49,665 nucleotides of DNA from an uncultured Eggerthellaceae bacterium (GTDB taxonomy: Bacteria; Actinomycetota; Coriobacteriia; Coriobacteriales; Eggerthellaceae), in the NCBI GenBank assembly GCA_903789415.1, contig CAIFEG010000015.1, positions 1-49,665 of the forward strand, written 5' to 3'. A program made the translations under genes and the position numbers. This document shows, piece after piece, positions 120 to 5,547 of the stretch. The number at the start of each line of letters is the position of its first letter. Position 1 is the stretch's first letter. The notes below the pieces were generated by a model. It had not been told where the DNA came from. It was given only the letters and a program-made list of their open reading frames with translations, and ran no database searches.

Positions 120-1166
120 TTAATTCAAGGGCCGAATATCTTTAGCCAAACTAAATGGGATAATCGCGTTGGGTTCAGTGTTTAGATATGCCTTTTCTTC
201 ATGCATATAATCGACAATTTCTTCTGTCGAATAGGTACGGAATTTTTTAACCACGACATCCAAAATGTCTTTTTCTTCTTGAGACAAAATCGAATAGTCA
301 GCGTTCGGAATTGGGTGAAAATGGAACATACTACTAAAATTGTAACTTTGCTTTTCCGTGACATTAACATTTTCAAGATTCATAAGATCGTTATGCCCAA
401 TAGGAAGGGCGCCCATCGGCTCATGTTGATATACAAGCCCAGTTATTGCATGGTTTTGATCTTTAAATGCTTGCACATCGGCATACCAAAGCATTTTCAT
501 GAGTTTAACTTTGAAAAGGTTTTCTACCTTTTGGGCAAAGTAAGAAATAGCTACTTCAATTTTGTCAATGTCTAAAGATTTGAAGCCATTAAAGTCGGAA
601 GGATCTTCGAAGCGTGCATAATCCCCTTTAAGTGCTTGTCTCGAAAGAAATTCTTTCCCGTGGGAGTCTAATTGTTCCGTAATTTGCTCTTTTATTTCTA
701 GAAACTTTGTGTGGGAAAACTTTTCCCTATTTCTTTGCAGAAACTCAAGCGCTACCAAAGGGTTATCTCTTACAAGACGTAGCATCGCGTCATGAGCTTC
801 ATCTTGAATTGACTTAGTCTCATATCGCGAAATCGTTGCTTCGCCCCACCCCATTAATTGAGCCAGATCAACTTGAGACAATCTATAACTCTTGCGAGTT
901 TGAATAATCTCGTCAGATGTAAGAAGATCATGCATCTTTCGATACGAATTTCTTGCATTAAGAAGATTTTCGTCCGTCATTTTGGCGGTTTCAAAATCGC
1001 ATTCATCATCTTTAGTATTCTCACAATGAAAATAGGTTTCGGGATAAGAAACAGTGTCTCCTTTAATAATTGTCGTAGCTATACGTTTTCGCAGCTCTAC
1101 ATTGTGCGTTTTATCGCAAATTGGACAATCCATATAAACAGTTTTTATTAACTTGTTTTCACTCAT
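120..1166 (-). CDS. MqsA-type antitoxin with XRE helix-turn-helix and Panacea (DUF4065) domain
   Basis: Likely antitoxin and autorepressor of the toxin gene just upstream. Numbered from the ATG at 1166, residues 10-60 form an MqsA/YgiT-like zinc finger (C14-x2-C17 and C48-x7-C56). Residues about 85-125 are an XRE helix-turn-helix (LSQVDLAQLMGWGEATISRY). Residues about 190-340 match the Panacea/DUF4065 fold (KLMKMLWYAD, PMGALPIGH), known as an antitoxin and chaperone-like domain. The start is chosen because GGGAGG lies about 7 nt upstream; ATGs at 1169 and 1181 are alternatives. The toxin stop codon ends at 1181, so the two genes are translationally linked. Three stacked domains are more than classical MqsA carries. 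Domain calls are secure; the toxin-antitoxin role is inferred from family and neighbour. Confidence 0.85.
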   Translation of the reverse strand: MSENKLIKTVYMDCPICDKTHNVELRKRIATTIIKGDTVSYPETYFHCENTKDDECDFETAKMTDENLLNARNSYRKMHDLLTSDEIIQTRKSYRLSQVDLAQLMGWGEATISRYETKSIQDEAHDAMLRLVRDNPLVALEFLQRNREKFSHTKFLEIKEQITEQLDSHGKEFLSRQALKGDYARFEDPSDFNGFKSLDIDKIEVAISYFAQKVENLFKVKLMKMLWYADVQAFKDQNHAITGLVYQHEPMGALPIGHNDLMNLENVNVTEKQSYNFSSMFHFHPIPNADYSILSQEEKDILDVVVKKFRTYSTEEIVDYMHEEKAYLNTEPNAIIPFSLAKDIRPLN

Positions 1167-1180
1167 CATTCGACCTCCCA

Positions 1181-1600
1181 TTACCTATAGGGAAACTCCA
1201 TTTCATGTTCTGCGTAATGAAACGAGATGCATAGCACCCTTTTCTTGTTTGTAGCCTTCAGTTTTAATTTGATGTATACCTGTTGGTTATTGGTAGCTTT
1301 TCCGAAGACAAACAACAATGGCGGTCTATCGTCGTCTCTATCAAATAAAGTTTCTGAATATTCTTGAACAGTCAGTTCTTCCAGACATTTCGCCACATCA
1401 TATCGGCTATATTCCAAATCATTCAAAGTATATGGTGTCGAAAACTGCTTATGTTTTGGGTCTTTGCTACTGATAATCAGTATAAGATCATCGTCGATAT
1501 TGAAGGATGGATCACAGAAGGCGGACCTAAGTTCCTCAAGAAACTTATTAACATCGCCACGTTTCGAAATAATCGGAACTCGAATGATCTTCACCTCCAT
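1181..1600 (-). CDS. MqsR-like type II toxin (putative mRNA interferase)
   Basis: A 139-residue protein starting at the ATG at 1600, directly upstream of the antitoxin. The C-terminal 85 residues carry an MqsR-like pattern: TLNDLEYSRYDVAKCLEEL, EYSETLFDRDDD, LLFVFGK, VYIKLKL and CISFHYAEHEMEFPYR. MqsR toxins are RelE-like ribonucleases that cleave mRNA. The roughly 50-residue N-terminal extension exceeds E. coli MqsR (98 residues). The frame stays open upstream to 1783, but that stretch covers the promoter and lacks a ribosome site, so it is excluded. The toxin comes first and the antitoxin second, as in mqsRA. Function is inferred from family resemblance; catalytic residues were not mapped. 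Confidence 0.75.
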   Translation of the reverse strand: MEVKIIRVPIISKRGDVNKFLEELRSAFCDPSFNIDDDLILIISSKDPKHKQFSTPYTLNDLEYSRYDVAKCLEELTVQEYSETLFDRDDDRPPLLFVFGKATNNQQVYIKLKLKATNKKRVLCISFHYAEHEMEFPYR

Positions 1601-1614
1601 TTGCAATGTAATTA

Positions 1615-1654
1615 TATCAATTGATAGTATACATATCAATTGATAGTGAGTCAA
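1615..1654 (-). promoter_or_regulatory. Toxin-antitoxin promoter with two palindromic operators
   Basis: On the minus strand TTGACT (1654-1649) and TATACT (1631-1626) are separated by exactly 17 bp. The perfect palindrome TATCAATTGATA occurs twice, at 1634-1645 inside the spacer and at 1615-1626 at the downstream edge of the -10 box, 19 bp centre to centre. An antitoxin dimer on either site would block RNA polymerase, the usual autoregulation of such modules. Confidence 0.8.
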
Positions 1655-1668
1655 GGCTGAACAAATAG

Positions 1669-2454
1669 TTACAGTCTGCGTACGCCAGCCCAGCCTGCCA
1701 TGGTGATGCAATGCGGAATAAACTTTCCCAGAATGCGCAGCACAAATGCACCAATACCGCACGTGGCAATAGCAAAGTGGCACTTATTCGCGAGAAGGGA
1801 ACGCCTGACCACAGTCTGAGGTTTTTGCGCGCCAAGGTAATGGCGTACATCATGACCTGTCTTTTCGGCGGTCTGCATAAACTCAGTTTTTACCCAGCCC
1901 GGGCACACCGCAGTTACACAGACACCTCGCCCGCGAACTTCCCATCGCAGCGCGCGCACATAACTCTGCATAAACGCCTTCGATGCTGCATACACATTGA
2001 GATGCGGAAGCGGCGTGAATGCCGAGCACGACACGATCTCAAGCACGTGGCTTCCCCGCCTCATATACGGAAGCACGATGGTGGTAATGTGAACCATCGC
2101 TTTGCAGTTGAGGTCGATCATCGCATCGTTGTCCTGAACAGGAATCGTATCCCAGGTACCAAATTTTCCAAACCCCGCCGCACTCACGAGATACGTTACA
2201 TTGGGTTTCTGTTTGGAAAGCTCAGCAGCGATGTGGTCCATGTCAGATGCGCTCGTAAGGTCTTCGCACATGATTTTCGTTGCACAAGGAAGTTCACGTG
2301 CAAGTTCTTCCAGGCGTTCTCGACGCCGGGCGATAAGCCAAATTTCTTCGACCTCGTCGCTTTTTGCAAGCTGCCGCGCGAATTCGCGCCCCATCCCCGA
2401 AGACGCGCCCGTGACAATGGCAACCTTTGTTGCCTTTTGTGTATCTACTGCCAT
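1669..2454 (-). CDS. Short-chain dehydrogenase/reductase (SDR family)
   Basis: Cytosolic NAD(P)-dependent oxidoreductase of about 261 residues, normal for a classical SDR. The N terminus has the Rossmann glycine motif TGASSGMG, the middle has the SAAGFG segment, and the active site is a Ser in EIVSCSA followed by YAASK. The downstream CPGWVKTEF matches the SDR PG motif. The ATG at 2454 is preceded by AAGGA at a good distance; an in-frame TTG lies just upstream. It resembles YdfG/DltE-type enzymes, but the substrate cannot be told. The C-terminal 40 residues are hydrophobic and may be a membrane-associated tail. Confidence 0.9.
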   Translation of the reverse strand: MAVDTQKATKVAIVTGASSGMGREFARQLAKSDEVEEIWLIARRRERLEELARELPCATKIMCEDLTSASDMDHIAAELSKQKPNVTYLVSAAGFGKFGTWDTIPVQDNDAMIDLNCKAMVHITTIVLPYMRRGSHVLEIVSCSAFTPLPHLNVYAASKAFMQSYVRALRWEVRGRGVCVTAVCPGWVKTEFMQTAEKTGHDVRHYLGAQKPQTVVRRSLLANKCHFAIATCGIGAFVLRILGKFIPHCITMAGWAGVRRL

Positions 2455-3288: not shown

Positions 3289-3936
3289 TTATGGTCGCAA
3301 ATACTTTGAATAGTGCTCCACCGCTTTTGCAAACAGATCATAATGCTCTATACGATGCGCATCGCTTGCTATATAGCTATACAACCCCATCTTAAAAAGC
3401 TTCTTGGCAGTGTGCTTAGAATTTCCAAGTCGCCCACCATTGATGAAATCAGCAGAGCATTGAAGTTTGCAGCCCAGATCCACAAGATGCTGCGCCCAAG
3501 ATACATCCTTGCGAATTGCCTCATACCGCTCTGGATGCGCAATGATTACTGAATAGCCCATGCTCTGAAGCTGATAAATGGTGTGATCATAGTCTCGAAA
3601 CGAATCAGCGGTACATGAATCTTCAAGTTCTAGTAAGAACTCTCCGGTGCCTTCAAACCCTAAATAGGGAGCCCATTGATCTACTCCTAATTTCATGAGT
3701 TTGTAGTGATTCACTTCAAAGCCCATAGTGAAATTAAAATCGGGAGCTGCTGCTTGAAGACGCGTAAAGGCATCCTCCATCTTGTCATAATTAAAATACG
3801 GATCCCGACAATGCGGAGTACACACAATGCTCGTTATGCCCGCCGCTTTTGCCGCGTTGAGCATTGCGAGACTGTACCGCAAGTTCGAAGATCCGTCATC
3901 TACACCCGGTAGTATATGGCAATGCATATCTCTCAT
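3289..3936 (-). CDS. cpsB: CpsB/CapC/YwqE-family tyrosine-protein phosphatase (PHP fold)
   Basis: Manganese-dependent phosphatase that dephosphorylates the capsule tyrosine kinase. The 215-residue length fits the family. PHP metal-binding motifs appear in order: MHCHILPGVDDG at the N terminus, CTPH near residue 42, the glutamate of EVNHY, AHPERY mid-protein and SDAHR near the C terminus. The start has GGTGG 6-7 nt upstream. It is the last gene of the capsule cluster, 29 bp after the kinase, in the usual wzz-kinase-phosphatase order (read on the minus strand). Confidence 0.93.
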   Translation of the reverse strand: MRDMHCHILPGVDDGSSNLRYSLAMLNAAKAAGITSIVCTPHCRDPYFNYDKMEDAFTRLQAAAPDFNFTMGFEVNHYKLMKLGVDQWAPYLGFEGTGEFLLELEDSCTADSFRDYDHTIYQLQSMGYSVIIAHPERYEAIRKDVSWAQHLVDLGCKLQCSADFINGGRLGNSKHTAKKLFKMGLYSYIASDAHRIEHYDLFAKAVEHYSKYLRP

Positions 3937-3965
3937 AAACTACCACCTCATACAATTATGAAATT

Positions 3966-4874
3966 CTATCGATGCATCTGATGACGAACAGAATATTTTG
4001 CATCATCGCGCGAATAATTCCCATGTGCGGGATTGCCTGCTTGTACGTAGGCTTTTGAATTATTTGCCTGTTGCGGTTTATTTTGCATCGCCGGAGCAGT
4101 CACTCTTCTATTTGGAGTAGGTGTGCCATTCGATGCTCCAGGTGCAAATTGTGGATGACGACCAGAGTTACTAGGTTCGGCATCATCCGCATTAAACTCC
4201 TGATAAGAAGTATGCTTCTTTTCGTGATAATAGTTGTAGTACTTAGAAGCAACGGCAACATCAGAGTGGTTGAGAACCGTTCCAATCACATTTGCTCCCG
4301 CTTTTTTAAGCTGATCATACGCATTCTGTACTTCTTCGCGCTTCGTGAAGTTTTGACGCACTACCAAAATGGTTGCATCCGTTAAAGAAGAAATAATTGC
4401 CGCATCAACAAAAGTATTTATCGGAGGGGTATCAAGAATAATATAGTCAAACGAATGTTTAAGATTATCTAGTAATTTTTTAAAACGTTTTGACTGCAGA
4501 ATATCCACTGGATTAGGAATACCCTGCTCAGCATCAAGAAAGAACATATTCTGTGTTGAAGTAGGAAGAATAGCTTCCTGCAACGTATGTCTGCCAGAAA
4601 GCACTGAGAATAGTCCATAGCGTCCATGGCTGCCCAGTGCGTTAGCCAGCGATCGACGACGCATATCGCATTCAACCATCAATACTCTATCCCGGCTCGA
4701 TGCAAATGCTCTACCCAGACCTACCGAAACAGCAGTTTTACCTTCATCAGGGATTGATGACACGATAGAAATAGTCTTGAGCTGGGTATCGACTGAAGAA
4801 AAGCGAATGTTTGCCGCCAACGTTTTGAACGCATTTTGTAAGATGACTCTGTTTGAATTATTTCTTTTTGGCAT
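3966..4874 (-). CDS. cpsD: CpsD/CapB-family tyrosine-protein kinase (BY-kinase)
   Basis: Cytoplasmic autokinase that pairs with the membrane activator encoded just upstream and controls capsule polymer assembly. Walker A is at residues 39-50 (SSIPDEGKTAVS), Walker A' at 64-75 (VLMVECDMRRRS) and Walker B near 145-151 (IILDTPP). A tyrosine cluster at residues 213-225 (YYNYYHEKKHTSY), with more tyrosines near the C terminus, is the expected autophosphorylation tail. At 302 residues it is longer than streptococcal CpsD because of a Pro/Asn/Gln-rich tail after residue 230. Only 16 bp separate it from the Wzz gene. Confidence 0.93.
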   Translation of the reverse strand: MPKRNNSNRVILQNAFKTLAANIRFSSVDTQLKTISIVSSIPDEGKTAVSVGLGRAFASSRDRVLMVECDMRRRSLANALGSHGRYGLFSVLSGRHTLQEAILPTSTQNMFFLDAEQGIPNPVDILQSKRFKKLLDNLKHSFDYIILDTPPINTFVDAAIISSLTDATILVVRQNFTKREEVQNAYDQLKKAGANVIGTVLNHSDVAVASKYYNYYHEKKHTSYQEFNADDAEPSNSGRHPQFAPGASNGTPTPNRRVTAPAMQNKPQQANNSKAYVQAGNPAHGNYSRDDAKYSVRHQMHR

Positions 4875-4890
4875 ATATATGTATCCACCT

Positions 4891-5547
4891 TTAAATTTCC
4901 GGTATCCGGCCGATTACCGGAACTCCATCAAGCAGAGACTCGAGTTCATCTGCGCTGCGAACTTTTGTATTGACCATATCTGCAATTACTACAATTACGA
5001 CTGCCGCAAAAAGACCGACAGCAAATGCTATAAGCACATAAAGTAAACGATTTGGCCCACTTGGACTCGAGGGTGCTTGTGCCTGCTCAACAGGATTTAC
5101 AGGCTGAACATCCATCACACTTTGCGCAATGTCGGATACATCATTCATCATCGCATTATTGATATCTGCAGCTGTTTGTGCATTCGGGCCTGTGACGGAA
5201 AGTGTGATAATGCGCGAAGTAGTTTGGCTGGAAACGCTGATGCTATAACCTGCAAGCCCCGGAACTCCTACATCATTACCTGCTTGATTTTTTACTCTAT
5301 CGCTTCTAAGCAGATTTGCGACATCATTTGAAAGCATTTGAGAAGCCGAAAGATCGCTTGACAAACTGTTTGAACTATTATTACTGCTTTCCGTTTGAGC
5401 AAGAACAAACATACTTGAAGTTGCCGTATATTGATCTCTCATGAAAAGTATGGAGTAAAGACCAACTACTAAGGCGCATACAATTGGTACAATAATTACA
5501 AAGCGTAAATGTTTTCGTAATAAGTGGCCGAGATCTAAAAGTGTCAT
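4891..5547 (-). CDS. cpsC: Wzz/CpsC-type chain-length regulator and kinase activator
   Basis: Membrane protein of 218 residues with the polysaccharide co-polymerase layout: a short cytoplasmic N terminus (LGHLLRKHL), TM1 near 17-37, an extracytoplasmic region rich in Ser/Asn/Gln (about 38-165), TM2 near 167-192, and a short cytoplasmic tail ending DGVPVIGRIPEI, the segment that contacts the kinase. A Pro-rich stretch precedes TM2, as in Wzz proteins. It sits first in the wzz-kinase-phosphatase trio, just downstream of the damaged region with the IS element. No strong ribosome-binding site is visible. Confidence 0.9.
   Translation of the reverse strand: MTLLDLGHLLRKHLRFVIIVPIVCALVVGLYSILFMRDQYTATSSMFVLAQTESSNNSSNSLSSDLSASQMLSNDVANLLRSDRVKNQAGNDVGVPGLAGYSISVSSQTTSRIITLSVTGPNAQTAADINNAMMNDVSDIAQSVMDVQPVNPVEQAQAPSSPSGPNRLLYVLIAFAVGLFAAVVIVVIADMVNTKVRSADELESLLDGVPVIGRIPEI

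Follow-up and report, generated by a model that had tools for sequence, protein, structure and literature searches.

A toxin-first MqsR:PanA operon with a probable near-cognate toxin start codon in an uncultured Eggerthellaceae bacterium

Among the toxins that partner Panacea proteins, MqsR-like is the most frequent recognised domain (n = 90; Kurata et al., 2022; PMC8832971). Ernits et al. (2023) studied the MqsR:PanA pair of B. fungorum, whose single antitoxin carries a zinc-binding domain, a helix-turn-helix (HTH) and a Panacea domain. MqsR is neutralised by the zinc-binding domain, either by itself or together with the HTH, but by neither Panacea nor HTH-Panacea (PMC10440598). They lean towards a sensory role for Panacea and describe stand-alone Panacea domains that neutralise other toxins directly. 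In the MqsR:MqsA pair of E. coli, residues K56, Q68, Y81 and K96 are needed for MqsR toxicity, and the four zinc cysteines of MqsA are perfectly conserved (Brown et al., 2009; PMC2791442).

Here we describe an operon at the start of a 49,665-base contig of an uncultured Eggerthellaceae bacterium (the window, meaning this whole stretch of DNA). The operon consists of two minus-strand genes, which lie where a first-pass annotation had put them. The toxin gene comes first, and its stop codon overlaps the first ATG of the antitoxin frame (TAATG). For the antitoxin, the most likely start is the ATG at 1166, not that at 1181: a GGGAGGT lies 6 nt before it, and the protein would then have 348 residues. 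Because toxin and antitoxin are adjacent, in unchanged order, in dozens of genomes, their pairing is not due to chance. The features of the locus are as follows.

1626..1654, minus strand: sigma-70-like promoter TTGACT-17-TATACT, upstream of the toxin gene
1615..1645, no strand assigned: candidate operator, two perfect TATCAATTGATA palindromes 19 bp apart, 0 mismatches
1593..1598, minus strand: toxin Shine-Dalgarno (SD) sequence GGAGGT, from sequence, with 7 nt spacing to ATT
1184..1600, minus strand: MqsR-like toxin in the first-pass frame, 139 codons from ATG, stop at 1181-1183
1184..1585, minus strand: probable true toxin coding sequence, 134 codons from ATT (1585-1583), from conservation of an ATH column (ATT, ATA or ATC) and the SD
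120-1181, minus strand: antitoxin open reading frame, 353 codons
123..1166, minus strand: antitoxin PanA with zinc-binding domain, XRE HTH and Panacea, 348 residues from the ATG at 1166
930..1133, minus strand: antitoxin zinc-binding domain, about residues 17-84 (353 numbering), from alignment
732..926, minus strand: antitoxin XRE HTH, about residues 86-150, from the HigA2 HTH (Z 10.9) and HTH_3
130..570, minus strand: antitoxin Panacea (SocA/DUF4065) domain, about residues 204-350, with PF13274 (4e-18) at 227-332

Past the operon and a short-chain dehydrogenase gene, at 3289-5547, lie genes whose translations read like exopolysaccharide regulation (tyrosine phosphatase, tyrosine kinase and Wzz-like proteins).

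The pair is a known kind of system. Like MqsR_D2:PanA of B. fungorum, it combines an MqsR toxin with a single antitoxin in the order zinc-binding domain, HTH, Panacea, and this three-domain merger is already published (PMC10440598). What marks the window's branch, which is made up of gut bacteria, mostly Lachnospiraceae, is a probable ATH toxin start and a CxxCxxxH...C zinc motif. With E. coli MqsR:MqsA the pair shares the toxin fold, the toxin-first order and an antitoxin with a zinc-binding domain and an XRE HTH, but MqsA has no Panacea domain and binds zinc through four cysteines (PMC2791442), whereas the window antitoxin has Panacea and three cysteines plus, probably, a histidine. In the window's own family, the Panacea-linked MqsR operons (loci L089-L102) likewise have an invariant SFH motif in the toxin and a zinc-binding-HTH-Panacea antitoxin; they differ in their four-Cys zinc site, and their antitoxins are only 22-26% identical to the window's.

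The three antitoxin domains predicted in the first-pass annotation, lying downstream of the toxin, were borne out by profiles and fold. Profile searches gave two matches above cut-off, TIGR03830 (MqsA family; E = 1.9e-22, 79.4 bits, cut-off 61.8) and PF13274 (SocA_Panacea; residues 227-332, E = 4e-18). PF15731 (MqsA) scored 27.9 bits, just below its cut-off of 30, and HTH_3 matched residues 94-122 below cut-off. An AlphaFold model (pLDDT 92, pTM 0.60) was confident within domains and uncertain in their arrangement. In structure comparisons the HTH, the most conserved antitoxin domain (95% identity to consensus), matched that of HigA2 with Z 10.9, and the antitoxin matched E. coli MqsA (3gn5_A) with Z 8.9 over 127 residues at an rmsd of 11 A, a value that presumably reflects domain orientation. 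The merger of domains had also been thought informative about how the antitoxin recognises its toxin: the architecture is real, but that question has largely been answered in B. fungorum (PMC10440598). Coevolution analysis of 56 toxin-antitoxin pairs gave no usable signal (Neff 27), with the top pairs spread across all domains.

Two further observations concern Panacea. The Panacea model (residues 200-347, 348 numbering) aligned with chain 7yk3_D of M. tuberculosis DarTG at Z 8.5 (4.2 A, 131 aligned residues), which may point to a fold link with DarG, a Z near 8 being also what a common arrangement can give. Elsewhere in the window's own genome (contig C12, locus L122), the translations read as a Panacea-like protein (846-1415, plus strand) adjoining a four-Cys zinc-binding-HTH protein (1495-2082, minus strand); the two genes are convergent, lie near a dprA-like gene, and carry between them the domains that the window antitoxin holds in one.

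The first-pass annotation called the 139-residue protein MqsR-like, and structure prediction agreed. The toxin model (pLDDT 88, pTM 0.84; built on 43 sequences), poorly predicted in its first five residues, superimposed on E. coli MqsR (3hi2_D) with Z 10.7, 91 of its 91 residues aligning at an rmsd of 2.2 A, and the second-best chain reached Z 4.9. Foldseek also returned 3hi2 at the top with a probability of 0.99, at an E-value of only 0.08. An N-terminal extension, also proposed at first, did not survive the comparison: residues 2-95 of MqsR align with model residues 9-127, which places the toxin's extra length internally and in a C-terminal tail.

Sequence profiles tie the toxin to MqsR through intermediates. 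PF15723 (MqsR_toxin) matched it weakly (E = 8e-4, 20.2 bits), below the Pfam curated cut-off of 26.2. Searching PDB sequences with the toxin profile returned only SarA and eIF3 (E = 0.005 and worse) and did not retrieve MqsR; the tie to MqsR came via the fold and intermediate families. In profile comparisons, the toxin family matched the Panacea-linked MqsRs of the Eggerthellaceae at 8e-19, and these in turn matched classical MqsRs, including that of E. coli, at 8e-5; compared directly with four classical MqsRs, the toxin family gave a weak E of 0.011. We therefore take the toxin as related to MqsR by fold, and not as one of Pfam's catalogued members.

Of the residues that E. coli MqsR needs, only the tyrosine is kept in the window (Y81, here Y109). 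The K96 position is occupied by the invariant His128, within the SFH motif common to Panacea-linked MqsRs; the K56 position is Glu83, invariant in the window's branch; and Q68 has no conserved counterpart. The K56 and Q68 positions vary in classical MqsRs too. Glu83 and His128 may recall YoeB and RNase Sa, which likewise have a Glu-His pair, a likeness drawn by inference only.

Upstream of the toxin gene, the first TATCAATTGATA palindrome lies in the promoter spacer and the second overlaps the -10 element; an overlapping promoter match, TTGATA-17-TATAAT, is found at 1639-1611. None of 100 shuffled sequences matched the palindrome pair by chance. Nearly every relative whose upstream sequence reaches far enough carries one or more copies, most toxin-less loci included. 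A natural inference, by analogy, is that the antitoxin represses its own promoter via these palindromes.

Most close antitoxin relatives, at 55-64% identity, come from Lachnospiraceae; in a sample of 397 genomes from that family, 37 matched with E < 1e-30. The 138 genomes examined from the window's own family contained just one other copy of the window's branch (45% identity), and the remaining full-length relatives seen in them belong to a different, four-Cys branch. A tree places the window with the Lachnospiraceae set, and the operon has a G+C content of 36-39%, compared with 48-53% in the adjoining 1.5 kb; both are in keeping with horizontal gain of the operon. One toxin-bearing copy (L121) comes from human faeces, on a scaffold that is labelled as phage and has no annotation. 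When viral contigs were searched for the toxin by peptide patterns, nothing was found, and a search of viral contigs with the antitoxin alignment yielded four distant loci.

We also compared zinc sites. The putative ligands of the window antitoxin are C19, C22, H26 and C53 (353 numbering), with an extra cysteine, C61, that is not conserved in relatives. The four-Cys arrangement of MqsA (CxxC...CxxC) is not found: the second CxxC knuckle is missing and the conserved His26 is present. Across relatives, the second knuckle is missing from all 72 sequences that have the CxxCxxxH histidine and present in all 17 that do not. As gain of the histidine and loss of the fourth cysteine are probably one evolutionary event, this pattern is suggestive, not proof, of a Cys3His zinc site in the window's branch.

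The toxin is frequently lost among relatives. In 69 loci with upstream sequence, it is intact in 42, broken in 17 and absent from 10 (27/69 broken or absent). Four loci (L017, L018, L046 and L076, the last with a replaced N terminus) were counted as broken, by reading; many loci come from metagenome assemblies, in which single frameshifts may be errors and deletions or whole losses less easily so. The losses are scattered across the tree, and the antitoxin is usually kept where the toxin is broken or absent. Six loci (L051, L052, L055, L058, L078 and L079) keep the antitoxin and the operator with no toxin. For toxin-less antitoxins that share a neighbourhood (L051/L052/L059, L055/L058 and L078/L079), dN/dS is about 0.05-0.14, and these three groups are under purifying selection. 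The expected relaxation of the zinc-binding domain was not seen in toxin-lost loci (identity to consensus 0.85 versus 0.82, p = 0.55), and no other toxin was found in six of the ten toxin-less genomes (L007, L051, L052, L058, L078 and L079). Retention of the toxin-less antitoxin under purifying selection suggests a toxin-independent role or protection against incoming copies. In L064 and L065, the loss extends beyond the toxin and takes in the operator and some of the zinc-binding domain. L060 (3866-4945) encodes an in-frame fusion created by a deletion: a C-terminal piece of the toxin runs into an antitoxin that begins at about residue 39 and so lacks the first zinc knuckle.

We next turn to the start of the toxin gene. 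AUU, AUA and AUC are extremely rare start codons. The 139-codon frame opens with ATG GAG GTG, and the toxin SD, GGAGGT (1593..1598, minus strand), sits within these codons. Since it overlaps both candidate starts, ATG 1600 and GTG 1594, neither is able to use it. Seven nucleotides downstream of the SD is ATT (1585-1583). We compared this position in the window and about 40 mostly Lachnospiraceae loci (n = 42). At 7-8 nt beyond the SD, 25 loci have ATT, 9 ATA, 7 ATC and one (L061) TTC, that is, ATH in 41/42 and ATG, GTG or TTG in none. The mean pairing energy of the SD with the 16S tail is -10.4 kcal/mol ahead of the ATH codon and -1.8 kcal/mol for the best upstream canonical start of each locus. 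The antitoxin starts with ATG in 37 of 37 loci, with an SD energy of -11.5. Judging from this pattern, the toxin gene in the window's branch probably starts at a near-cognate AUU, AUA or AUC, and the true start in the window probably lies later than the ATG at 1600. Behind the same SD, outgroup toxins have ATG (L067, L117, L129, L130 and L141) or TTG (L138-L140), and the simplest reading is that the start switched to a near-cognate codon at the base of the branch.

Could the toxin instead start at a canonical codon, the ATG at 1600 here and GTG or TTG elsewhere, with the ATH column a conserved isoleucine and the purine-rich stretch a conserved Glu-Val? We think this unlikely. In-frame candidates are at hand, as the window has an ATG five codons and a GTG three codons ahead of the ATT, and a GTG three codons ahead recurs in 31/42 loci; initiation there is possible but would have to be SD-less, since a matching SD core at proper spacing precedes an upstream canonical start in 0/37 loci. 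In five loci (L012, L027, L031, L043 and L048), the frame upstream of the ATH contains no ATG, GTG or TTG. In L012 a stop codon lies six codons ahead of the ATC, and no canonical codon appears in the frame until about codon 86, deep within the domain. An invariant isoleucine codon could reflect a structural constraint on the protein. L012 and L027 carry the SD (GGA GGC and GGA GGT) in a different reading frame at unchanged spacing from the ATH, which argues that the nucleotides and not Glu-Val are conserved, and the outgroups carry ATG or TTG behind a matching SD.

Two other alternatives bear on the function of the proteins. One assigns neutralisation in the window's branch to Panacea instead of the zinc-binding domain, whose zinc site would have decayed to three cysteines. 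The branch-wide loss of the fourth cysteine and the direct neutralisation of other toxins by stand-alone Panacea domains would fit, but we regard this as very unlikely: the loss is matched by the invariant histidine of CxxCxxxH, suggesting a rebuilt site over decay; the zinc-binding domain is well conserved and modelled with high confidence in an MqsA-like topology; and in B. fungorum it suffices for neutralisation by itself (PMC10440598). The other takes the operon for a relic, decaying or domesticated, with an inactive toxin in the window and an antitoxin surviving as a transcriptional regulator. To this we give little credence. The window toxin frame is intact and keeps Y109, K111, H128 and E83, all invariant or nearly so in the family, and the operator is perfect, although the losses in 27/69 loci with the antitoxin usually kept, and the three toxin-less groups under purifying selection, are what a relic would lead one to expect.

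The reading we prefer, and hold with good confidence, is a chromosomal type II MqsR:PanA operon, toxin-first, in which a near-cognate toxin start and an AUG antitoxin start keep the antitoxin in excess. The toxin would be a predicted MqsR/RelE-fold ribonuclease. By analogy with the studied homologue, the N-terminal zinc-binding domain of the antitoxin would bind and neutralise it, and the HTH would form dimers that sit on the two TATCAATTGATA palindromes and repress the promoter, with Panacea an accessory, possibly sensory, module. The toxin would be translated from AUU, AUA or AUC behind a strong SD and the antitoxin from AUG, and the near-cognate start would keep the antitoxin in excess despite its gene coming second. 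Of these elements, the folds, the domain order, the conserved operon, the promoter with its palindromes and the start-codon pattern are observed; the near-cognate start, its effect and the Cys3His site are deductions from sequence.

This arrangement has a parallel outside toxin-antitoxin systems. The sigR gene of Streptomyces starts with GTC and is repressed by IF3, and the partner anti-sigma factor, RsrA, is made in excess; infC starts with ATT (ATC in Streptomyces), and IF3 represses its initiation (PMC5472188). As probably in the window toxin gene, a conserved non-canonical start limits the gene's own product, and such starts are often misannotated to an upstream canonical codon, that of sigR in all available streptomycete genomes (PMC5472188). 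The differences are that sigR-rsrA is a sigma/anti-sigma pair and infC encodes IF3 itself, whereas the window holds a toxin-antitoxin pair, and that repression by IF3 is demonstrated for sigR and infC and putative for the toxin. The toxin gene appears to share the pattern of IF3-controlled genes, a conserved start other than ATG, GTG or TTG behind a good SD. Tentatively, the branch-wide change from AUG to AUU, AUA or AUC might make toxin synthesis dependent on start-codon discrimination by IF3. On this view the module would act as a sensor of initiation fidelity, with a drop in IF3 function allowing the toxin to be translated and the RNase to act. We consider this possible but doubtful. Toxin genes with GUG, CUG or unspecified non-AUG starts have been reported (PMC9431474, PMC6562991, PMC8167048); we found no report of an AUU, AUA or AUC start on a toxin gene among the open-access papers searched, and the probable non-AUG start appears new for a toxin-antitoxin module.

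Toxin-first operons must still yield more antitoxin than toxin, and a conserved near-cognate toxin start would be a simple solution, comparable to that of sigR-rsrA. If the non-AUG start is true, toxins of this branch are annotated with the wrong N terminus, and swapping the native start for ATG in expression tests would alter toxicity. The toxin-less antitoxins under selection bear on what Panacea does, and the antitoxin may act apart from the toxin.
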